Source of the DNA: Pseudomonadota bacterium
Lineage (GTDB): Bacteria; Desulfobacterota; JAPLJL01
Direction of reading: 5' to 3'
Assembly (NCBI GenBank): GCA_026388655.1
Contig: JAPLJI010000067.1
Location: forward strand, 1 to 64,000
DNA: 64,000 nucleotides
Shown: in pieces, positions 48,024-62,365 of the stretch
Numbering within the stretch: position 1 is the first letter of the stretch
Layout: each line of letters starts with the position of its first letter
Translations under genes and position numbers: made by a program
The notes under the pieces: model-generated
The model's input: only the letters and a program-made list of their open reading frames with translations
What the model was told of the DNA's origin: nothing
Databases searched by the model: none

Positions 48024-48134
48024 TTCGACCACCCCTAGATTCCCGCTCCCCGATTAAGAACTTCGAGGACAAGCTCCGCGGGAATGACAGCGAACAAACC
48101 AAGACGAAAAAACGAAAATCAGAAAGGGAAATTA

Positions 48135-48767
48135 ATGAAGATTCTCGGGTTGTGCGGGTCGCCGATCAAGAAAGGGAATGCGTACGTCTACCTGGGAAAG
48201 GCCCTGGAGCCAATCCAGGGCACGGGGCCGGAGATCGAGATCGTCGAACTCGCTAAAAAGAAGATCGAGGACTGCGTCCATTGCAACTGGTGCCTGAAGA
48301 ACAAGGATGTTAAAAAGATCTGCGCCCAGAATGACGACGGGGAGGAAATCCTCCACAAAATAAAATCCTGTGACATCCTGGTGGCGGCTTCACCGGCCTA
48401 CTACGGGCGGATGACGGGGAGGATGGCAAGCATCTTCGACCGCACCCGGCCCTTCATTTTCAGCCCCGCCCATCGGGGCGTGATGAAAGACAAGCTGGGG
48501 GTGGCCCTGACCGTGGGATGGGGGCGCAACTCCGGGGTGGAGACTACGTTACTTTCCATTGTTTACAGTTTCATGGTCCTCGAGATGCTCCCAGTTAGCT
48601 ACCACGAAGGGGGGGCGCTTTTCGGGGCGGCGGGTATCTCGAACCCGCTCCTTGTTCGGCGGGAAAAGAACGACCATCACGCCATCGAAGCCGACCTGCC
48701 GGGCATCCTGGCCGCCCAAGGGGTGATCAAAAGGGCGGTAGACTTAAGCGGGAGAATAAAGAGATAA
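48135..48767 (+). CDS. iron-sulfur flavoprotein (FMN-reductase family)
   Basis: 210 residues from ATG 48135 (AAGGGAAATTA upstream; the track start 48084 lies 51 bp too early). ILGLCGSPIKKGNAYVYLGKAL is the FMN-binding GSPxxxGN motif and CVHCNWCLKNKDVKKIC is the compact cysteine motif of Isf-type [4Fe-4S] flavoproteins (C-x2-C-x2-C-x7-C). VAASPAYYGRMTGRMASIFDRTR follows. These reduce FMN/FAD or small electron acceptors in anaerobes. RBS and context make it a separate unit after a REP-bearing gap. Confidence 0.85.
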   Translation: MKILGLCGSPIKKGNAYVYLGKALEPIQGTGPEIEIVELAKKKIEDCVHCNWCLKNKDVKKICAQNDDGEEILHKIKSCDILVAASPAYYGRMTGRMASIFDRTRPFIFSPAHRGVMKDKLGVALTVGWGRNSGVETTLLSIVYSFMVLEMLPVSYHEGGALFGAAGISNPLLVRREKNDHHAIEADLPGILAAQGVIKRAVDLSGRIKR

Positions 48768-49088: not shown

Positions 49089-49107
49089 TCTTAATAGGGG
49101 ATTGGCG

Positions 49108-49563
49108 ATGGCGAAGATTCTAAACATTTCCGAAGCGGTGTCCCTGGCGTTGCACGCGGCGCTGATGATGTCGGCCAACCCGGGCCGGCTGATTTCCACG
49201 CATGAGATCGCGACCGCGCTCCAGGGTTCGGAGGCGCATCTCGCCAAGGTCCTCCAGCGCCTGGTGAAGGCGGGCCTGGTGGAGTCCATCCGGGGGCCCG
49301 CCGGAGGTTTCCGGCTGAAAAAGAAGCCGTCGGAGATCTGTCTGATCGAGATTTTTGAAATAATCGAGGGCAGGCTCGCGGAAGACAAATGTTTGCTTTC
49401 TTCCCCGATCTGCCCCGCGGGGTCCTGCATCTTCGGCGGGATGCTGGATTCGGTCAACCGGCAGGTAAAGGATTATCTGACCAAAACCCAGCTTTCGGAG
49501 TTTTGTAATCTTTCTCTTCCTCGGAAGGGAGGAAAACATGGCCAGGCGAAGAAAAATCATTGA
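49108..49563 (+). CDS. Rrf2-family iron-sulfur transcriptional regulator
   Basis: 151 residues from ATG 49108 (AGGGGATTGGCG upstream). The winged helix reads ISTHEIATALQGSEAHLAKVLQRLVKAGLVESIRGPAGGFRLKKKP. A cysteine set CLLSSPICPAGSC (C-x6-C-x4-C) is like those that hold clusters in IscR/NsrR relatives, so it probably senses Fe-S status, NO or redox. It probably represses its own promoter through the 24-bp inverted repeat. It overlaps the next gene by 26 bp. Confidence 0.87.
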   Translation: MAKILNISEAVSLALHAALMMSANPGRLISTHEIATALQGSEAHLAKVLQRLVKAGLVESIRGPAGGFRLKKKPSEICLIEIFEIIEGRLAEDKCLLSSPICPAGSCIFGGMLDSVNRQVKDYLTKTQLSEFCNLSLPRKGGKHGQAKKNH

Positions 49564-50305
49564 GATCGATGAAAAAAAGTGCAACGGCTGCGGGCAGTGC
49601 GTCTCCGCCTGCGCGGAAGGGGCGCTCGAACTGGTGAACGGTAAGGCTAAACTCGTCAAGGATATTTACTGCGACGGGCTCGGGGCCTGCATCGGCGAAT
49701 GCCCGGAAGGAGCCTTGAAGATCATTGAGCGGGAGGCCGGTTCGTTTGACGAAAAAGCGGTGGAGAGCCGGAAGGAGGGCAAGAAACCCAAAAGCAAGGG
49801 CGGCAAAACCCCGAAGACGGCGAAACCCGGCAGGACCGGGGAAACCCTGCCCTGCGGCTGTCCCTCGAACACCGTAATGGATTTGAAGACGACAAAGACT
49901 TCCACACCAGGGACCGCCGGGGAAATTCATTCCGAGCTTTCGCACTGGCCGATCAAGTTGAAGCTCCTCCCGCCCGAGGCGCCCTTTCTGAAGGGAGCCA
50001 ACCTCGTCCTCCTTGCCGACTGCTCCGCGGCGGCTTATCCAAACCTGCACCCGCATCTCCTCCGGGGCCGGGCCATCGTTATGGCCTGCCCGAAGTTCGA
50101 CGATCTCGAGGGGCACATCAACCGGCTGGCGGCGATCCTGGAGGCTTCGCGTCCGAAAAACCTGACCGTGGTCATCATGGAGGTTTCCTGCTGCCGCGGT
50201 CTTCTCTTCGCCGCCGAGAAGGCGGTCGAGCTTTCCGGAGTAAAAGTGCCCATCACTAAAATGATAATTGGCCGAAGCGGGAAAATTTTGGAGAAAACGG
50301 AATAA
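49538..50305 (+). CDS. ferredoxin-like protein of the Rrf2 locus
   Basis: 255 residues. N-terminal two-[4Fe-4S] domain: CNGCGQCVSACAEGAL and CDGLGACIGECPEGAL. A Lys-rich linker then leads to an unusual C-terminal part (LLADCSAAAYPNLHPHLLRGRAIVMACPKFDDLEGHINRLAAIL ... EVSCCRGL) with further Cys residues. From memory this family is often found beside Rrf2 regulators and hybrid-cluster protein (Hcp) genes; not verified. ATG 49538 behind GGAGG overlaps the Rrf2 gene by 26 bp. Confidence 0.75.
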   Translation: MARRRKIIEIDEKKCNGCGQCVSACAEGALELVNGKAKLVKDIYCDGLGACIGECPEGALKIIEREAGSFDEKAVESRKEGKKPKSKGGKTPKTAKPGRTGETLPCGCPSNTVMDLKTTKTSTPGTAGEIHSELSHWPIKLKLLPPEAPFLKGANLVLLADCSAAAYPNLHPHLLRGRAIVMACPKFDDLEGHINRLAAILEASRPKNLTVVIMEVSCCRGLLFAAEKAVELSGVKVPITKMIIGRSGKILEKTE

Positions 50306-50420: not shown

Positions 50421-51191
50421 ATGTCAAAAACCATCTGCCCTGGTCAGGATACGCGGTTCTGGAAGCCCGGAGACATCTTCGAGGCGGTCTGCGGGAAGTG
50501 CGGCCGGCCGATCGAGTTTTTCAAGGATGACGCCGCCCGGCGCTGTCCCGGGTGCGGCCAGCGGGTGCAAAATCCCAAGATCAGCCTGGGCTGTGCCCAG
50601 TGGTGCGAGCACGCCCGGGAGTGCCTGGGCTATGATCCCAAAGAAGGCAACCCAGACTACGCCAAGGCTTCGTCGGGCTCGCAGAGCTCGGAGCAGGAAG
50701 AAAGCTTGGTGGATCGCCTGATCGAGGCGGTCAAAAAGGAATTCGGCTGTGATCAGAAACGCATCACGCATGCCTTGATGGTGCTGGAGAAAGCGCAAAA
50801 GATTTTACGTCGCGAAGGGGGCAATCCCCGCGTGGTTTTGACCGCGGCCCTCCTGCACGACATCGGGATCAAGGCGACCGAGCGCAAGCACGGCTCCGCC
50901 GCCGGCAAATACCAGGAAATCGAGGGACCGCCGATCGCCCAGCGGATCATGCGGGAACTCAATCTGGATGTAGAAACCATTGAGCACGTCAGCCGGATCG
51001 TCGGCAGCCACCACAGCGCTGGAGACATCGACACCCTAGAATTCCGGATCCTTTGGGACGCCGACTGGCTGGTGAACCTGCGGGAAGAATTCCCTCAGGC
51101 GGGGAAAGAGGAACTGGAAAAGAAGATCGCGCGGATTTTTAAAACCGGAACTGGGAAGGAAATGGCCTTGGATTTACTGCCTCCCCATTAA
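50421..51191 (+). CDS. HD-domain phosphohydrolase with N-terminal zinc-ribbon
   Basis: 256 residues. The N-terminal CGKCGRPIEFFKDDAARRCPGCGQRV is a zinc ribbon (CxxC...CxxC), then CAQWCEHARECLGY with more cysteines. From about residue 95, VVLTAALLHDIGIKATERKHG and IVGSHHSA form the HD domain with HD and HH metal ligands. Such proteins act on nucleotides or other phosphoesters; this one is probably a regulator or housekeeping hydrolase of the Rrf2 locus. Start at ATG 50421; no strong RBS was seen. Confidence 0.8.
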   Translation: MSKTICPGQDTRFWKPGDIFEAVCGKCGRPIEFFKDDAARRCPGCGQRVQNPKISLGCAQWCEHARECLGYDPKEGNPDYAKASSGSQSSEQEESLVDRLIEAVKKEFGCDQKRITHALMVLEKAQKILRREGGNPRVVLTAALLHDIGIKATERKHGSAAGKYQEIEGPPIAQRIMRELNLDVETIEHVSRIVGSHHSAGDIDTLEFRILWDADWLVNLREEFPQAGKEELEKKIARIFKTGTGKEMALDLLPPH

Positions 51192-51302: not shown

Positions 51303-51666
51303 GTGAGCAATATTGTACTTTATGTCCTCGTTGGTCTGGTCGCCGGGTTTTTCAGCGGCCTGATCGGGATCGGCGGGGGCGTAATCATTATCCCGATCCT
51401 GGTTTTGCTCTTCGGTCTCACGCAGCACCAGGCCCAGGGGACCACGCTGGCCCTTGCTCGTGCCTCCGGTGGGTTTGCTCGCGGCCCTGACTTATTACAG
51501 ACAGGGATATGTAAACCTGGAAATGGCCGCTTTGATTGCGGCGGGTTTCTTCCTGGGCGACCTGGGGGGCGCCCAGGTCGCGGTCGGGCTTTCCAGCGCG
51601 GTCCTGGAAAAGGTTTTCGGGGTTGCGCTTCTTTTGATTTCGGTCAAGATGATTCTGGGCAAATGA
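51303..51666 (+). pseudogene. TauE/SafE-family sulfite/organosulfonate exporter, frameshifted
   Basis: GTG 51303 behind AGGAGG. ORFs 51303..51698 and 51454..51666 are one gene. The frame VLVGLVAGFFSGLIGIGGGVIIIPILVLLFGL...GTTLAL breaks at CTTGCT (51453-51458); deleting one T gives LVPPVGLLAALTYYRQGYVNLEMAALIAAGFFLGDLGGAQVA...LISVKMIL, the TauE repeat. 363 bp without that base is 120 codons plus stop. One-base frameshift; could be mutation or assembly error. Confidence 0.72.
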
Positions 51667-51955
51667 TGAGATTTGTTTTATTGTCATTCCGGGCTTGACT
51701 AAGCCTGCCCCGTACTTGATACGGGGGAACCCAGTATATTTTTCTGTATTCCCACTCCCCGATTAATGACTTCGGGGACAGGTTTCGTGGGGATGACATG
51801 CGGGGAAAATTGATACTTCGACAGCGCCCAAACCCGGCCCTTTAGGGCGGGGAAAGAGGCGCCGCTCAGTATCAACCCTGAGCATACCCCGGGTTTTAGA
51901 CCGGGCAAGTCGAAGGGTTGATTCCTGCTCTACATGAATTAATAAGGAGGAAGAA
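51667..51955. repeat. intergenic DNA with long repeats upstream of cooS
   Basis: A GTCATTCC-type palindrome with a 'gggcttgactaagcctgccc' extension (about 51679-51780), then the repeat 'ttgatacttcgacagcgccc...gtcgaagggttgatt' (51809-51925), homologous to 34969-35118. cooS's own AGGAGG is at 51945. Confidence 0.6.
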
Positions 51956-53860
51956 ATGGAAGACAACCGGATTTCCTATCACGAGTCGGTTAGAAAAGCC
52001 TACGAGCGGATCAAAAAAGACGGCTTGACCAATATCTGGGACCGCTACGAGGCCCAGGGAATGGGGGGCAATCCCGACCAGCGCTGTCCTTTCTGCCTGG
52101 GAGGGGTTCGCTGCGACTTCTGCTCCAACGGACCCTGCCGGGCCGACGTGGCCAAGGACAAACGGGGCGTCTGCGGGATCACCGGCGACGGGATGGCGAT
52201 GCGGATGATGGTGCTCCGAAACGTCATGGGCGCCGCCACCTACCATTACCACACCGAGCAGACCTTAAAAACCCTGCGGGCCACCGCCCGGGGCAAGACC
52301 CCGTTCACGATCCGGGAGCCCGGGAAGCTCAAAAGCTTCTCCGAGCGCCTGGGGATCAGCATCAAGGGCTCCGACGCGGATCTCGCCCTCCGCCTGGCCG
52401 ACTTCGCCGAAACCGACTTCCATCGAAGCGCCGGGGAAGAAAGCCGGATCGTGGCCGCCTTGGCCCCGCCCGAGCGCCAGGACGCCTGGATCAACCTCGA
52501 TCTTTTCCCGGGCGGCATCTACGGGGAGATGATGCGGGCGACCAGTTCCTGCCTGACCAACGTGGACGGTTATTACGTGAGTCTGGCCCTGAAGGCGATG
52601 CGGCTGGCCGTGGCCACGGCCTACCAGTCCCAGATCGTGAACGAATACTGCCAGGATATCCTCTTCGGGATCCCCCGGCCCCATCCCTTCCGGGTGAACC
52701 TCGGGGTTCTGGACCCGGATTACGTCAACGTTCTTCCCAACGGCCACGAGCCCTTTCTCGGTTTTGCCATGGTCCAGCTGGCCCGGAAGCCCGAGTGGCA
52801 GGAGAAGGCCCGGGCCACCGGGGCCAAAGGCCTGCGCGTGATCGCGAATATCGAGACCGGGCAAGAGATGATCCAGCGCTGGAATACCGACGACGTGTTC
52901 TACGGCTTCACCGGCAACTGGATCATGCAGGAGGCGGTCCTGGCCTCGGGCGCGGTGGACCTGTTCGCTTGCGACATGAACTGCTCGATGCCGGTGGACC
53001 CGATGTACGCCCAGAAATACAAATTCAAGCTCGTCCCGGTGAGTGACCTGGTCGCTTTCGAGGGAGTGACCGAGCGGATTGATTACCTTCCCGAGAAAGC
53101 CGGGGTCCAGGCGGCCAGGCTTCTCGAAATGGCGATCGGCAATTTTAAGGAACGCCAGGCCTCGGTGGAGCCGATCCGGGGCCTCGGTGCCGGGGAAGCG
53201 GTGGTCGGTTTTTCGATTGAGAGCATCCTCGACGCCCTGGGTGGGAGCCTCGACCCGCTTCTGGGCGCGATTAAAAGCGGGGCTCTGCGCGGGGTCGCCG
53301 GCCTGGTTTCCTGCACCACCCTCCGGGATTCCGGCCAGGACGTCCACAGCGTCGCGGTGGCGAAGGAGCTGATCAAGCGGAACATCCTGATCCTTTCGAT
53401 GGGGTGCGGGAACGGGGCGATGCAGGTGGCGGGGCTTTGCCGCCCGGAGGCCCGGGAACTGGCCGGCCCGGGCTTGAAGGCGATCTGTGAAAAACTCGGG
53501 ACCCCGCCGGTCCTCTCCTTTGGGACCTGCACCGACACCGGGCGGCTGGCCGATCTCCTGTTGGCGGTTTCCACCGCCCTGGGCGGGGTTCCGCTTCCCG
53601 ATCTCCCGGTGGCGGCGGTGGTGCCGGAATATATGGAGCAGAAGGCCACGATTGACGCGGTTTTCGCCCTGGCCCTGGGGCTTTACACCTATGTGAACCC
53701 GGTGCCCACTGTCACCGGCGCGCCCAACCTGGTCAAGCTTTTAACCCAGGACCTGCCCGGGGTGACCGGGGGGATTCTCAACGTGGAGAAGGATGCGGTC
53801 AAGGCGGTGGACGGCATTCTCGCCCACATCGAGGCAAAACGGAAGAAGCTCGGGATCTAA
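51956..53860 (+). CDS. CooS-family [NiFeS]-CODH homologue with altered C-cluster ligands
   Basis: 634 residues, full length for CooS. By comparison with the C. hydrogenoformans CODH-II sequence as I recall it: B-cluster Cys53, Cys56, Cys61 and Cys73 are present; the D-cluster motif is CPFC-x5-C with Arg52 in place of the second D-cluster Cys and a Cys at 47 instead; C-cluster His264, Cys343, Cys453, Cys484 and Cys525 are present, and the active-site Lys563 too, but the Cys in the CCTGNE motif is Glu300 (IETGQE), and the catalytic His93 position is Tyr96 (YHYH). So this is a CODH homologue whose CO chemistry is uncertain. RBS AGGAGG. HAO-like gene follows 128 bp later. Confidence 0.85.
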   Translation: MEDNRISYHESVRKAYERIKKDGLTNIWDRYEAQGMGGNPDQRCPFCLGGVRCDFCSNGPCRADVAKDKRGVCGITGDGMAMRMMVLRNVMGAATYHYHTEQTLKTLRATARGKTPFTIREPGKLKSFSERLGISIKGSDADLALRLADFAETDFHRSAGEESRIVAALAPPERQDAWINLDLFPGGIYGEMMRATSSCLTNVDGYYVSLALKAMRLAVATAYQSQIVNEYCQDILFGIPRPHPFRVNLGVLDPDYVNVLPNGHEPFLGFAMVQLARKPEWQEKARATGAKGLRVIANIETGQEMIQRWNTDDVFYGFTGNWIMQEAVLASGAVDLFACDMNCSMPVDPMYAQKYKFKLVPVSDLVAFEGVTERIDYLPEKAGVQAARLLEMAIGNFKERQASVEPIRGLGAGEAVVGFSIESILDALGGSLDPLLGAIKSGALRGVAGLVSCTTLRDSGQDVHSVAVAKELIKRNILILSMGCGNGAMQVAGLCRPEARELAGPGLKAICEKLGTPPVLSFGTCTDTGRLADLLLAVSTALGGVPLPDLPVAAVVPEYMEQKATIDAVFALALGLYTYVNPVPTVTGAPNLVKLLTQDLPGVTGGILNVEKDAVKAVDGILAHIEAKRKKLGI

Positions 53861-53988: not shown

Positions 53989-55166
53989 ATGAAAACGCTG
54001 ACTCCTGCTTTAACCTTCATCTTCCTGGTTTTTTGGGTGTTGACCGGGGGAACGGCGCGGGCGGAAGAGGTGGATTGCGCCGCCTGCCATAAAAAGGTCA
54101 CTCCCAATATCGTTTCGGACTGGGAGTTAAGCCAGCACGGGCAAAACCAGATTGATTGCTCGGCCTGCCATGGGAGCGATCACAAATCCGAAAAGGACGT
54201 GAAGAATGCCCGGATTCCCACCCCGGAGGTCTGCGCCGAATGCCACGAGGAGAAGGTCCGGGAGTTTAAAAACGGGAAGCACGCCCGAGCCTGGAGCTCG
54301 ATGAAGGCGATGCCCACCTTTCACTGGCAGCCGATGGTGATGATCGAGGGAATGAAGGGCTGCGGGGGATGTCACAAGATCGGCCTCAAGACCGAAGCCG
54401 AGATCAAGGAGCTTTCCAAGGCGGGAAGGGGATTCGGGATGGCCTCCTGCGACGCCTGCCACACCCGGCACCTGTTTTCGGTAGCCGAGGCGAGCCAGCC
54501 CCAGGCCTGCCAGACCTGCCACATGGGTTTCGACCACGCGCAGTGGGAGATGTATTCCACCTCCAAGCACGGGGTCCGCTACCTCCTGAAGCAGAACAAG
54601 ACCCTGCCCGAAGGCGCGGCCGCGCCCAAGTGCCAGATGTGCCACCTGCCCGGGGGAAACCACGCCAACCAGACCGCCTGGGGCTTCCTGGCGGTGCGAA
54701 TGCCCCTGCCCGAGGACAAACAGTGGGCGCGGGACCGCGCGACCTTGATGCAGGCCCTGGGGGTTTTGGACCCGGAGGGGAAACCCACCCCCCGCCTGGA
54801 GGTAATCAAAAAGGAAAAGGTGGTCCGCCTGACACAGGAGGAGTGGCAGAAGGAGCGGTCATCCAGACCGCGGATCGGATCATGGCCGAGGCGATCCGGA
54901 TCGTGGCGGATTTATATAAGGATGGCCTGTTCAAGAAGCCGAAGGAATACACCTTCGCCTACCCGGATCTCCTGACCTTCCACGATGCTACCACCCTGAT
55001 CGAGGAGAAACTTTTTCTGATGTTTTTCGAATATCGGATGCGCACCTTCCAGGGATCGTTTCACCTGAACCCGGATTACGCTTTCTGGTACGGCTACAGC
55101 AAGATGCAGCTCGACCTAGTGGAGATCAAGGACATGGCGGAGGAAATGAGGCGCCTGAAGAAGTAA
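53989..55166 (+). pseudogene. HAO-like multiheme cytochrome, one-base frameshift
   Basis: ATG 53989 behind GGAGGAAAG; signal peptide to about residue 24 (GGTARA). ORFs 53899..54975 and 54369..55166 are one gene: at 54855-54860 GAGCGGTC lacks a G, and adding it gives KERVIQTADRIMAEAIRIVADLYKDGLF.... Total 392 residues. Seven CXXCH motifs (CAACH, CSACH, CAECH, CGGCH, CDACH, CQTCH, CQMCH) and the HAO-type stretches GFGMASCDACHTRHLFS, MGFDHAQWEMYSTSKHG and a C-terminal GSFHLNPDYAFWYG. Families: hydroxylamine dehydrogenase/nitrite reductase. Deletion could be mutation or assembly error. Directly after cooS. Confidence 0.78.
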
Positions 55167-55433: not shown

Positions 55434-55706
55434 ATGGCAATTAACCAAAAAAACTTGCATGTTCCTCTATCCGAAAATCTTTATTCCCGCCTTCGCGAGA
55501 CAGCCGATTTAACCCAAAGGCCGGCTACGGAATTGGCCCGGGAGGCGATTCAGACCTGGCTGGAGATTAAAGAACGCGAAGCTCTACGTGAAAAAATTCA
55601 AGAATACGCGATGAAAGCGGCCGGAACGCTGGATGATCTTGATCCGGATTTAGAGGAGGCGGCTATTGAACATCTGACCTCATCACGAAAACGGAGGCGC
55701 AAATGA
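55434..55706 (+). CDS. ribbon-helix-helix antitoxin
   Basis: 90 residues. LHVPLSENLYSRLRETADLTQRPATELAREAIQTWLEIKERE is an RHH DNA-binding fold, followed by an acidic/basic C-terminus (DDLDPDLEEAAIEHLTSSRKRRRK). Antitoxin of a MazE-like module. The stop overlaps the toxin ATG (ATGA). RBS GGAGGTG precedes ATG 55434. It probably autoregulates with the toxin. Confidence 0.83.
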   Translation: MAINQKNLHVPLSENLYSRLRETADLTQRPATELAREAIQTWLEIKEREALREKIQEYAMKAAGTLDDLDPDLEEAAIEHLTSSRKRRRK

Positions 55707-56050
55707 AGCGGGGCGAGGTCTGGTGGGCCGAGTTGCGTCCGCGGTCGGGTTCAGAGCAGAAAGGGAATAGACCGGCCATAATTATCTCCCATGATGGTTT
55801 TAATTCGATACCGGGGTGGCGCTCGATCATCATTATTCCGGTTTCAACCTCCCCCCGCCAACTATTGAGGGGACCTACGTCCATTCCAATCCCGGCGGGT
55901 GAAGGGGGAATTGATCGTGATTCCGTTGCCCTTTGCCACCAGGTTACGACCCTTGACCGGGCCAAGCTTACTAAATGTCTGGGACTTTTATCTTTGCCAA
56001 TGCTGGAAAAGATTGAAGCCGGTCTAAAAGCCGCAATGGATTTATTATAG
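55703..56050 (+). CDS. MazF/PemK-family endoribonuclease toxin
   Basis: 115 residues. KRGEVWWAELRPRSGSEQKGNRPAIIISHDGFNS ... IIIIPVSTSP, the MazF/PemK barrel with the RPAIII strand, then LCHQVTTLDRAKL, the typical C-terminal segment. It cleaves mRNA. Overlaps antitoxin by 4 bp; the last base of the TAG stop overlaps the GTG of a third small gene. Confidence 0.88.
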   Translation: MKRGEVWWAELRPRSGSEQKGNRPAIIISHDGFNSIPGWRSIIIIPVSTSPRQLLRGPTSIPIPAGEGGIDRDSVALCHQVTTLDRAKLTKCLGLLSLPMLEKIEAGLKAAMDLL

Positions 56051-58550: not shown

Positions 58551-58822
58551 ATCAAATCAAATCCCAATTACCAAATTCCAATAACCAAACCCTTCGACTA
58601 CGCTCCCTTCGACTCACTAAGGTTCGCTCAGGGCCTGCATGGCAGGCAATTACCAAATATTAACAACCGAGCTGGAAACTTCAAACTCGAAACCTTAGAA
58701 CTTTGAACCTTGAACCTTGAACCTTAAACTCTACGATGAAAGGCTTTAGCCTTGCGGAAGGACTTGTTATTATCTATCGGAAAGAAATAACCAGGTTTTC
58801 CAGCATCCGAGGAGGACAGGAA
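58551..58822. repeat. intergenic low-complexity DNA
   Basis: 'caattaccaaattccaataaccaaaccc' (58563-58592), the 'cttcgact..ggttcgctcagggcc' repeat (58593-58637) and 'ctttgaaccttgaaccttgaaccttaaactc' (58701-58732). RBS GAGGAGGACAGG precedes hypB at 58823. Confidence 0.6.
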
Positions 58823-59491
58823 ATGGCAGAGATCAAGGTAATCCAGTCAATCATGAAAGAAAATGACAGGGTGGCGGAAGAAAACCGCCAGTGGTTCGAT
58901 AAGAACCGGGTCTTCACCATCAACCTGATGAGTTCCCCCGGTTCGGGCAAGACCACGATCCTGGAAAAAACCGTGGCCCGGCTCAAGGACCGGTTCAAGA
59001 TCGGCGTGATCGAGGGGGATATCTACACGAGCGCGGACGCCGACCGCCTCCGGCCCCTGGGTATTCCCCTGGTTCAGATCAATACCGGGCCCTTCGGGGG
59101 TGACTGCCACCTTTCCGCGGCGATGATCCGGGCCGCCCTGGACGGGTTCAACCCCGGGGAGATCGAGCTGCTTTTTATCGAGAATGTCGGCAACCTGGTC
59201 TGCCCGGCCGAGTTCGAACTCGGGGTGGAGCGCGATGTGGCCATTCTTTCCATCGCCGAAGGGGAGGACAAACCCCTTAAGTACCCCCTGCTTTTCCGCC
59301 GGGCCCACCTCTTGCTGCTCAGCAAGATGGATCTGCTCCCGCACCTGCAATACGACCGGAAACTGGTCGAAGAGAACGTGAGAAAGATCAATCCCAAGCT
59401 TCCGATCATCCCGGTATCCGCCAAAACGGGGGAGGGTTTCGATTCCTGGATCGAGTGGATTGTGGCCCAGATGAAGAACGGAAAGAAATAA
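58823..59491 (+). CDS. hypB: HypB, hydrogenase/urease nickel-incorporation GTPase
   Basis: 222 residues from ATG 58823 (GGAGGACAGGAA upstream; the track's 58736 start is 87 bp too early). P-loop INLMSSPGSGKTT, switch region VQINTGPFGGDCHLSA, Walker B IENVGNLVCPAEFELG, guanine motif KMDLLPHL and VSAKTGEGF are all intact. The N-terminus lacks the His-rich nickel-storage stretch of some HypB. No hypA, hypCDEF or hydrogenase genes in view. It may serve hydrogenase or CODH maturation. Confidence 0.88.
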   Translation: MAEIKVIQSIMKENDRVAEENRQWFDKNRVFTINLMSSPGSGKTTILEKTVARLKDRFKIGVIEGDIYTSADADRLRPLGIPLVQINTGPFGGDCHLSAAMIRAALDGFNPGEIELLFIENVGNLVCPAEFELGVERDVAILSIAEGEDKPLKYPLLFRRAHLLLLSKMDLLPHLQYDRKLVEENVRKINPKLPIIPVSAKTGEGFDSWIEWIVAQMKNGKK

Positions 59492-59605: not shown

Positions 59606-60298
59606 ATGGGTGAGAAAAACGTGGTGCGGAAGATTGACAATCTGGTGGCGGTCCGGAACGTGATCCTGAGCGTGTCGGACAAGGGCGGGCTCAATGAATT
59701 CGTTCCGGAACTGGTGAAGATCTGTCCCGGGATCCGCCTTTATTCCACGGGGGGCACTTTCAGCTCCCTGAAGAGCATTCTCGCCGACCAGGGGAAGCCG
59801 CCGCTTTTACAGCAGATCTCGGATTACACCGGCCAGCCGGAAATGCAGGGCGGGCTGGTCAAGACCCTCGACTTCAAGGTTTACCTCGGGCTCCTGTCCG
59901 AAACCTACAACCCGGCCCACGCCGACGACCTGAAACGGACGGGGGCGGTTCCCTTCGATCTCATGGTGGTCAATCTGTATCCTTTCCGGGAAACCATCGC
60001 CAAACCCAGGGTCACGGTGGAGGACGCCCGGGCGAATATCGACATCGGCGGCCCCTGCATGGTCCGGGCCTCCGCGAAGACTGTCAACCGGGAGGCGATC
60101 CTGGTCGATCCCAAGGATTATTCCCGGATCCTGGAAGAATTGAAGAAAAATAAGGGCAAAATCTCCCTGGCCACCCGCTTCGAACTGGCCCAGAAGGCCT
60201 TCCGTCACACCGCGGAGTATGACACGACGATTAGTGGGTACCTGGGAAAAACCGACTTCGGCAAGGTCAAGGGGGCTTATCCCGAGATTGCCGGGTAG
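59606..60298 (+). CDS. IMP cyclohydrolase (PurH N-terminal domain, split)
   Basis: 230 residues. NVILSVSDKGGLNEF, LYSTGGTFSSL, DYTGQPEMQGGLVKTLDFKV and NLYPFRETI are typical of the IMPCH domain of PurH, with NIDIGGPCMVRASAKTVN. It closes FAICAR to IMP, the last step of purine synthesis. In most bacteria it is fused to the AICARFT domain; here that domain is a separate gene at 61112. An mtgA gene lies between them. Confidence 0.9.
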   Translation: MGEKNVVRKIDNLVAVRNVILSVSDKGGLNEFVPELVKICPGIRLYSTGGTFSSLKSILADQGKPPLLQQISDYTGQPEMQGGLVKTLDFKVYLGLLSETYNPAHADDLKRTGAVPFDLMVVNLYPFRETIAKPRVTVEDARANIDIGGPCMVRASAKTVNREAILVDPKDYSRILEELKKNKGKISLATRFELAQKAFRHTAEYDTTISGYLGKTDFGKVKGAYPEIAG

Positions 60299-60301
60299 GG
60301 G

Positions 60302-61030
60302 ATGGGAAAGAAACCAGCCCGCCGGGCTGCGCGGAGATGGCCCTTCTGGGCGGGTCTGATTCTCGCGGGGCTGGCTCTCGGGTTTTCCGTTTACATTGTA
60401 TATCTGGGTCGGGATCTTCCGGACGTTTCCCCTTACCGGAAGAAAATCCCGTCGGCCCGGGGGGAGCGGATCTTCGTACCCTTTGCCGCCATCCCCGGGG
60501 TTTTGGTCAAGGCGGTGATCGCCGCGGAGGATTGTAACTTTTACCGGCACCACGGCCTGGATTACGAGGCCATCTGGGATGCCTTCAAGGAAAATATCTC
60601 CGAGGGGCGGGTGGTCCGGGGCGGGAGCACCATCACCCAGCAGCTCGCGAAAAACCTTTTTCTTTCCAAGGAAAGGACCCTGAGACGGAAGATCCGGGAG
60701 GCCCTGATCGCCCGGGAGCTGGAGCGGAAACTTTCCAAGCAGCGGATCCTCGAGCTTTATCTCAACGTGGTGGAATGGGGGGACGGGATCAACGGGGTGG
60801 AGGCGGCCTGCCGCCGGTATTTTCACAAGTCGGTGCCGGAGATTTCCGTGGCGGAAGCCGCGGTTCTGGCGGCGATGCTTCCCAACCCCCATTATTACAG
60901 CCCCTTTCGCCACCAGGACAAGCTGGAACGCCGGGTCCGCCGGCTCCTGATGCATATGTGGAAGAACCGTTCCATTTCCCCGGACCAATACCGGGAGGCG
61001 CTTAATTCTCTCTCCGTCAGTGTTTTATAG
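60302..61030 (+). CDS. mtgA: monofunctional peptidoglycan transglycosylase
   Basis: 242 residues. TM anchor (residues about 13-33), then the GT51 signature motifs IAAEDCNFYRHHGLDYEAI (catalytic Glu) and RVVRGGSTITQQLAKNLFLSKERTLRRKIREA. It polymerises lipid II. It starts 3 bp after the IMPCH gene and 81 bp before the AICARFT gene, so it interrupts the split purH pair in the same transcript. Confidence 0.92.
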   Translation: MGKKPARRAARRWPFWAGLILAGLALGFSVYIVYLGRDLPDVSPYRKKIPSARGERIFVPFAAIPGVLVKAVIAAEDCNFYRHHGLDYEAIWDAFKENISEGRVVRGGSTITQQLAKNLFLSKERTLRRKIREALIARELERKLSKQRILELYLNVVEWGDGINGVEAACRRYFHKSVPEISVAEAAVLAAMLPNPHYYSPFRHQDKLERRVRRLLMHMWKNRSISPDQYREALNSLSVSVL

Positions 61031-61111
61031 CGAATTGACAAAAAGGGGATTTTGTAATTTTATGTCAGGGCGGCATTTTCATCACTTAAAATTCAAGGAG
61101 AGGACTGGCAC
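61031..61111. other. short gap before the AICARFT gene
   Basis: 'AAGGAGAGG' ribosome-binding site at about 61096-61104. No terminator. Confidence 0.35.
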
Positions 61112-62365
61112 ATGGCGAAAGACCTGAAGGCGATGTACAAGACGGTTATGGACGACCATTTTCCCCGGAAAATGGAGATCAGCTTTATCGATGAGGGGGG
61201 CAAGCGCTCCACCCTGCAGTATGAAAAGGTGAGCTGGGTGATCGAAGGGGTGGAGAAGGGGCTCCGCTACGGGGAGAACCCGGGACAGGAGGCGGCCCTC
61301 TTCAAGCTCGTCAACGGGAACCTGGTCCTGGGGGAGGTCAAGACCATCGACCCGGGGAGATACCTGGCTTCGAACATGGAAATGCTCCAGTCCGGCAAGC
61401 ATCCCGGGAAAACCAACATCACCGACGTGGACAACGCCCTGAACATCCTCCGCTATTTACCGGAGCGGCCGGCGGTGGTGATCGTCAAGCACAATAATCC
61501 CTGCGGGGCGGCCCGGGCCGACAGTCTGGAACAGGCTTACCGGAAGGCGTTTTCCGCAGACCGGGTGGCGGCCTTCGGTGGGGCGATCGCCCTGAACCGT
61601 CCGGTGGATAAGGCCACGGCCGAGGGGATCAACGCCCAGTACGCCGAGGTGGTGGCGGCCCCGGACTACGAGGAGGAGGCCTTCCAGATCCTGGCCCAGC
61701 GCAAGAATTTACGGATTCTCCGGATCGAGAACATCGCCCGGCTCGAGCAGTGGGTGGGCCGGCAGTTCGTGGATATCAAGAGCCTGATCGATGGGGGCAT
61801 TATCGTCCAGGCCTCCTTCGTCCCGGTGACCCGCAAGCCGAAGGACCTCCAGCCCGCGGTCTGCGAATACAAGGGCAAGGAATACAAAATCAAGCGCCAG
61901 CCCACGGAAAAAGAAATCCAGGACATGCTCTTCGGCTGGCTGGTGGAAGCGGGGGTATCCTCCAACTCGGTGCTTTATGTCAAGGACGATGTCACCGTCG
62001 GGATCGGCACCGGGGAACAGGACCGGGTGGGGGTGGCGGAGATCGCCCGGGACAAGGCCTACCGGAAGCTGGCCGACCGTTACTGCTTCGAGGCCTACAA
62101 GGTTCCCTACAACGACCTGAAGGACGAGGACAAGCGCCGGGAGATCGACGAGCGGGTGAAAAAGGAACGGGGCGGAATTCCCGGTTCGGTCATGGTCAGC
62201 GACGCTTTCTTTCCCTTCAAGGACGGGGTGGAAGTGGGAATCAGGGAGGGCGTCGGCGCGGTGATCCAGCCGGGAGGATCGGAGCGGGATTTCGAGGTGA
62301 TCGAGGCCTGCAACGAAGCTAACGTCGCCATGATGTTTACCGGGCAGCGATCCTTTAAACATTAA
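61112..62365 (+). CDS. AICAR formyltransferase (PurH C-terminal domain, split)
   Basis: 417 residues. LRYGENPGQEAAL, VKHNNPCGAARAD, FSADRVAAFGGAIALNRPVDKATA and SVMVSDAFFPFKDGVEVGIREGVGAVIQPGGSERD are the AICARFT catalytic and substrate motifs; the terminal FTGQRSFKH is the usual PurH ending. It adds the formyl group from 10-formyl-THF to AICAR. It extends about 50 residues at the N-terminus before the conserved domain. Partner of the IMPCH gene 0.8 kb upstream. Confidence 0.92.
   Translation: MAKDLKAMYKTVMDDHFPRKMEISFIDEGGKRSTLQYEKVSWVIEGVEKGLRYGENPGQEAALFKLVNGNLVLGEVKTIDPGRYLASNMEMLQSGKHPGKTNITDVDNALNILRYLPERPAVVIVKHNNPCGAARADSLEQAYRKAFSADRVAAFGGAIALNRPVDKATAEGINAQYAEVVAAPDYEEEAFQILAQRKNLRILRIENIARLEQWVGRQFVDIKSLIDGGIIVQASFVPVTRKPKDLQPAVCEYKGKEYKIKRQPTEKEIQDMLFGWLVEAGVSSNSVLYVKDDVTVGIGTGEQDRVGVAEIARDKAYRKLADRYCFEAYKVPYNDLKDEDKRREIDERVKKERGGIPGSVMVSDAFFPFKDGVEVGIREGVGAVIQPGGSERDFEVIEACNEANVAMMFTGQRSFKH

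Follow-up and report, generated by a model that had tools for sequence, protein, structure and literature searches.

A CooS-V-type (group D-1) protein encoded near an FrdX-type ferredoxin in a Desulfobacterota genome, very probably a hybrid-cluster protein and not a carbon monoxide dehydrogenase

What does a protein do that is built like the catalytic subunit of carbon monoxide dehydrogenase (CODH) but has exchanged residues that hold and serve the Ni-Fe active-site cluster? The question is raised by a cooS homologue in a 64,000-nucleotide stretch of DNA (hereafter the window; contig JAPLJI010000067.1 of assembly GCA_026388655.1, GTDB phylum Desulfobacterota), whose intact open reading frame (ORF) of 634 codons contains no internal stops. 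The encoded protein scores 706 bits against the TIGR01702 profile (cut-off 478 bits), and its 23.9 bits against the curated profile of Hcp (TIGR01703) lie far below the cut-off of 360.8. Our analysis indicates that it is almost certainly a CooS-V-type hybrid-cluster protein of structural group D-1 and not a CO dehydrogenase, and the best overall explanation, to which we give a probability of roughly 0.6, is an Hcp-like low-potential reductase fed by an FrdX-type ferredoxin, maybe acting on N-oxides.

Alignment of the protein with ordinary CODHs and with CooS-V of Carboxydothermus hydrogenoformans shows that Cys53/56/61/73, His264, Cys343/453/484/525 and Lys563 are all kept, as an earlier note on this DNA had proposed by eye, and that Glu300 (in IETGQE) does occupy the position of C-cluster Cys295 and Tyr96 that of His93. 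The five Cys and one His that bind the cluster of a functional Ni,Fe-CODH are therefore incomplete, Glu300 replacing Cys295, and Tyr96 stands where such an enzyme has its catalytic His93. For the D-cluster the same note had read a CPFC motif with Arg52 at the usual second Cys, which is correct, and had taken the usual motif to be lost; the ligand pair is still there but has moved, with Cys47 occupying the usual Gly position of CooS, and this gives the known type III motif C-x2-C-x5-C (Cys44, Cys47, Cys53). Three further changes escaped the note, namely Asn342 for Gln, Gln303 for Asn and Glu561 for Ser. The last of these provides the extra Glu two residues before Lys563 that is also present in Hcp, and the ligand set of the Hcp hybrid cluster (His, Glu, four Cys, Glu) is complete in the window protein, the equivalence of positions being that of PMC6344411.

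The closest solved structure is 7B7Q, which is CooS-V (664 bits, the next structure scoring 373 bits), and the two proteins are 50% identical over their full length. All cluster ligands of CooS-V are identical in the window protein (Cys44/47, Cys53/56/61/73, His264, Glu300, Cys343/453/484/525 and Glu561), as are the equivalent of its Asn337 (Asn342) and the Tyr in place of His93. Jeoung et al. (2022; PMC9311411) solved CooS-V with the same pair of Cys-to-Glu and Gly-to-Cys exchanges and found a [2Fe-2S] D-cluster and a redox-morphing [4Fe-3S-nO] hybrid cluster without Ni; the protein neither oxidized CO nor reduced CO2, and it showed very slow reduction of hydroxylamine (kcat 0.13 per s) and none of NO that could be detected. 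Inoue et al. (2019; PMC6344411) defined structural group D-1 by its type III D-cluster, by Glu and Tyr in place of the first Cys and the His, respectively, and by an extra Hcp-like Glu, and every feature tabulated for the group (type III D-cluster, His, Glu, four Cys, Tyr, Lys, extra Glu) is found in the window protein. A new type of active site is thus ruled out, since CooS-V has the same residues, and the enzyme type is already known from CooS-V and group D-1; the suggestion of a different cluster doing different chemistry is supported in kind by both papers and was in print before (PMC9311411; PMC6344411). The window protein departs from CooS-V in its place within a tight subgroup (identity 64% or more, in most cases 74% or more), CooS-V forming a branch outside it, in having Arg52 and not Ser before the first B-cluster Cys, and in having genes for an FrdX-type ferredoxin and an Rrf2-family regulator nearby. 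An AlphaFold model of the protein (predicted local distance difference test score, pLDDT, 81; predicted template modelling score, pTM, 0.86) matches the CooS-V structures 7b9a/7b7q best (template modelling score, TM, 0.94; 50% identity), followed by Desulfovibrio vulgaris CODH (TM 0.91); the scores of ordinary CODHs are 0.91-0.92. This margin is small, and it is the sequence evidence that carries the assignment to CooS-V.

The exchanged residues are a property of a clade. A scan of GTDB species genomes returned at least 390 encoded relatives; the best 80, with identities of 75-80%, are spread over Actinomycetota, Chloroflexota, Desulfobacterota, WOR-3, Asgard and other archaea. When 82 relatives sharing 74% identity or more, together with CooS-V and one further sequence (L083), were compared with 29 ordinary CooS proteins, C44, C47, Y96, E300, Q303, N342 and E561 were invariant in all 84, whereas the ordinary proteins have His at the position of Y96, Cys at E300, Gln at N342, Ser, His or Thr at E561 and, in 27 of 29, Gly at Cys47. 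In a tree of 50 sequences all 29 D-1 members, among them CooS-V, lie on one side of a branch of length 1.3 with full support (Shimodaira-Hasegawa-like approximate likelihood ratio test, SH-aLRT, 100%), apart from ordinary CooS. The exchanges are therefore fixed in a monophyletic clade and are not peculiar to a single sequence, the outcome that would have spoken against the earlier note. The genome of the window also encodes a second CooS, of the ordinary type (L001, on contig C29 of genome G000), next to an ORF that resembles AcsD/CdhD by eye; this protein shares with the window protein the scaffold, the B-cluster, the His, four of the five C-cluster Cys and the Lys, but it has CCTANE where the window protein has IETGQE, His at position 93 and the Gly/Cys D-cluster pattern, and the two are about 34% identical.

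Unbiased clustering of all ORFs flanking cooS in 80 D-1 loci produced one outstanding partner, a ferredoxin that shares the strand of cooS in each of the 21 loci where it occurs and lies upstream of it in 11. A direct search raised the count to 22 of the 80 loci, again on the same strand and within 2.6 kb, with gaps mostly of 4-850 bp (maximum about 2.5 kb). These loci belong to Chloroflexota, WOR-3, Asgard archaea, ANME-1 and Thermoplasmatota, with Dehalococcoidia, Methanomassiliicoccales and Thermoplasmata among them. Since genomes usually carry a single copy of this ferredoxin, we roughly estimate chance adjacency to D-1 cooS to be of the order of 0.001 per genome. Among 297 genomes of the same phylum, 98 are listed with both hcp and this ferredoxin family, and in at least 56 of these the two are no more than 5 kb apart; of the 44 ordinary cooS listed, none has the ferredoxin within that distance. 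Position beside hcp is what defines frdX (PMC545781; PMC1274295), and we call the window ferredoxin FrdX-type on the basis of its family's position beside hcp. In Clostridioides difficile NO induces frdX and hcp together, by about 200-fold, and cells in which one or the other is knocked down become NO-sensitive (PMC12915319). The Hcp-FrdX pair (Rodionov 2004/2005, PMC545781, PMC1274295; PMC12915319) therefore resembles the window system in its set of cluster ligands and in the type of its ferredoxin partner, but the window protein belongs to a different branch of the prismane/CODH family, with a CooS fold and a D-cluster, and the regulator beside it is Rrf2 and not HcpR. Beyond the eight ferredoxin Cys, the FrdX-type family has invariant Cys in DC, CP and CC motifs (residues ~108-219), and its C-terminal domain possibly holds a further metal site; with a pLDDT of 71 the structure model is poor, and comparison of folds recovers the ferredoxin part alone.

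The distribution of hcp follows the same line. Searches at E <= 1e-60 did not find hcp in the window's genus, neither in the genome of the window nor in G001 or G002, and among genomes with ferredoxin beside D-1 cooS it was found in one of 22 (G473), compared with 16 of the 58 other D-1 genomes; Fisher's test gives p = 0.03, a value on which we do not lean as the genomes are related. Many D-1 genomes are draft metagenome-assembled genomes, in which absences are soft. In at least ten hcp-bearing D-1 genomes (G061, G425, G435, G063, G436, G062, G434, G445, G471, G454) the ferredoxin adjoins hcp instead, and so it goes with whichever hybrid-cluster protein is present. The D-1 gene is, moreover, the only prismane-family (CODH/Hcp) gene found in nine of 43 D-1 genomes (G059, G064, G415, G419, G429, G438, G448, G451, G464), four of which (G415, G419, G438, G448) come from records titled as chromosome. 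This runs against the statement that CooS-V-type genes occur only alongside other CODH genes (PMC9311411), and such lone genes argue for a function outside CO metabolism. In four WOR-3 loci (L009, L014, L018, L030) the lone cooS is followed directly by the ferredoxin, and in three of them (L009, L014, L030) an Rrf2-like gene lies 5' of it.

By homology to 7B7Q, the window protein would form a homodimer with a [2Fe-2S] D-cluster on Cys44/Cys47 and a [4Fe-4S] B-cluster on Cys53/56/61/73, in which the Ni-Fe C-cluster would give way to a redox-morphing [4Fe-3S-nO] cluster with His264, Glu300, Cys343, Cys453, Cys484, Cys525 and Glu561 as its ligands. The probable source of electrons is the adjacent FrdX-type ferredoxin, whose normal partner is Hcp; the electrons would pass from the D-cluster through the B-cluster to the hybrid cluster, whose reduction would open the substrate channel as in CooS-V. 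A small oxidized substrate would then be reduced; the tie to Hcp and FrdX makes an N-oxide (hydroxylamine or an NO-derived species) the first choice, although this part is tentative and somewhat less probable than not. The adjacent Fe-S-type Rrf2 regulator may control expression, and in hosts without hcp, such as that of the window, D-1 CooS may stand in for Hcp. More broadly, we give even odds to the idea that D-1 CooS and Hcp, of separate origins, are interchangeable and share one FrdX, so that where hcp is missing FrdX (often with an Fe-S Rrf2 regulator) sits beside D-1 cooS, and that some lineages (WOR-3 and others) have D-1 CooS as their sole CODH/Hcp-family protein, which would give the group a role independent of CO metabolism.

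Could the gene instead be decaying, or its sequence be wrong? Two ORFs neighbouring cooS in the window are frameshifted in the assembly, but the substitutions are fixed across more than 80 genomes, and the copy in G002, of the same genus, encodes a protein of equal length and 92% identity; between the two genes, each of 634 codons, there are 112 synonymous codon differences and 49 nonsynonymous ones. The excess of synonymous differences shows purifying selection on the window gene, and together with the fixation it rules out decay or assembly error, to which we assign a negligible chance; the conserved remainder had earlier been read in the same sense. That the protein still works on CO by means of an altered cluster, for instance to remove CO at high concentrations, is very improbable. 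TIGR01702 labels the protein a CODH catalytic subunit, and a monofunctional CooS of Methanosarcina acetivorans, of a kind that Inoue et al. place in D-1 (PMC6344411), is reported to aid CO removal (PMC4652020); however, the C295E variant of CODH-II was Ni-poor and inactive with CO (PMC9311411), the cooS of Archaeoglobus fulgidus, assigned to clade D (PMC13056359), did not respond to CO (PMC4543118), the nine of 43 genomes with D-1 as sole family member fit CO metabolism poorly, and the sole recurring neighbour is an Hcp-type ferredoxin.

Two other functions are unlikely in our view, to a similar degree, though less remote than CO conversion. The protein might sense redox state or NO and not act as a metabolic reductase: CooS-V shows redox-dependent morphing and channel closing (PMC9311411), a sensing or regulatory role has been proposed for clade D (PMC13056359), and an Rrf2 regulator is linked to the gene in the window, in G002, in G292 and at several other loci. 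Yet an adjacent ferredoxin donor fits turnover better than sensing, the protein lacks a sensing or output domain, and the CooS-V channel opens only on reduction, which its authors read as the behaviour of a reductase (PMC9311411). Defence could also be directed at O2 or peroxide and not at nitrosative stress, given that the O2 tolerance of D. vulgaris CODH has been linked to a [2Fe-2S] D-cluster (PMC9311411) and that the C. difficile cooS cd0174, be it of group D-1 or not, is induced by sigma-B with aerobic and nitrosative stress genes (PMC7494833), but the literature ties FrdX and Hcp mainly to NO and nitrite. Several observations weigh against the FrdX-fed, Hcp-like reductase that we prefer. 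No ferredoxin adjoins cooS in the flanking DNA examined at 58 of the 80 D-1 loci, in the window itself two genes separate them, and hcp also occurs in 17 of 80 D-1 genomes, so that replacement is not general; Rrf2 proteins sense many things besides NO, and the slow hydroxylamine reduction and undetected NO reduction of CooS-V mean that an N-oxide may be the wrong substrate.

Table 1. Features of the cooS locus, with positions numbered within the window.
Feature	Position	Strand	Basis or remark
FMN (flavin mononucleotide) reductase (NADPH-dependent) / iron-sulfur-flavoprotein-like gene	48084..48764	+	
Rrf2-family regulator, three conserved Cys; 3' end overlaps ferredoxin start	49102..49563	+	profile, locus comparison
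FrdX-type ferredoxin, 255 aa, 2x[4Fe-4S] motifs and C-terminal alpha/beta domain; proposed electron donor	49538..50305	+	
HD-domain phosphohydrolase between ferredoxin and cooS	50421..51191	+	kept in genus
Short membrane protein, TauE/SafE-like, frameshifted here	51303..51698	+	by eye, no family match
cooS homologue, structural group D-1 / CooS-V type, 634 aa	51956..53860	+	alignment, profile, tree, AlphaFold fold match
D-cluster motif CPFC (Cys44, Cys47), type III, expected intersubunit [2Fe-2S]	52085..52096	+	alignment, CooS-V precedent (PMC9311411)
Tyr96, position of catalytic His93	52241..52243	+	Tyr in 84/84 D-1 relatives, His in 29/29 ordinary CooS
Glu300 (GAG), position of C-cluster Cys295	52853..52855	+	Glu295 of CooS-V, an iron ligand there
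Asn342-Cys343, equivalent to Asn337-Cys338 of CooS-V	52979..52984	+	alignment
Glu561 (in MEQKA), equivalent to Glu556 of CooS-V and Glu494 of Hcp; Ser in most CODHs	53636..53638	+	alignment
Multihaem cytochrome, HAO-like (hydroxylamine oxidoreductase), 7 CxxCH, split by frameshift	53989..55163	+	directly 3' of cooS
Small overlapping ORF pair resembling a MazEF-type toxin-antitoxin module	55434..56050	+	by eye
HypB (Ni-incorporation GTPase)	58736..59491	+	~5 kb downstream of cooS
PurH, apparently split	59606..62365	+	by eye
IMP (inosine monophosphate)-cyclohydrolase-like ORF	59606..60298	+	by eye
AICAR (5-aminoimidazole-4-carboxamide ribonucleotide)-transformylase-like ORF	61112..62365	+	by eye

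The order Rrf2, ferredoxin, HD-domain protein, TauE/SafE-like protein and cooS is retained in G002; G001 keeps the first three, which reach near a contig end, and in G292, from another family, the Rrf2, ferredoxin and cooS genes are contiguous. All ten Rrf2 proteins linked to D-1 cooS contain three invariant Cys, as would be expected if they were Rrf2 regulators of the Fe-S type, to which IscR and NsrR belong. The TauE/SafE-like ORF, which continues in another frame after a single frameshift and whose counterpart in G002 also reads broken, probably lies outside the mechanism. The main text of PMC6344411 names a COG1063 dehydrogenase and HypA/HypB as D-1 partners, and the window does contain HypB; we set it aside as a Ni-maturation partner for its distance and because no HypB turned up in the DNA flanking the D-1 loci of 80 relatives. 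Relatives of the FMN-reductase-like gene occur near D-1 cooS in 12-14 of 80 loci, and Lokiarchaeota account for many of these; the family is large, however, and the identity about 30%, so that the case for a partner is weak. The HAO-like cytochrome matches 6t5e best in the PDB (E 1e-25), and its C-terminal part matches 6h5l; as a component of the system it is unsupported, being frameshifted in the window and absent beside cooS in G002. A monofunctional transglycosylase-like ORF (by eye) sits between the two PurH-like ORFs.

A 2026 genomic survey did not find a clear neighbour pattern for clade D (PMC13056359), and we found neither the FrdX link nor the Hcp-complementary pattern for D-1 in the searchable literature, which excludes supplements and subscription papers; titles and abstracts on frdX and carbon monoxide dehydrogenase include none concerning such a link. 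For CooS-V relatives the text of PMC9311411 reports no obvious one-carbon context and names no redox partner. As to what CooS-V-type proteins do in the cell and which redox partner serves them, the recurring, co-oriented FrdX gene offers a concrete candidate for the donor, and its place beside D-1 cooS ties group D-1 to the biology of Hcp. When environmental genomes are assessed for CO metabolism, D-1 genes annotated as CO dehydrogenase should accordingly be left out of the evidence.
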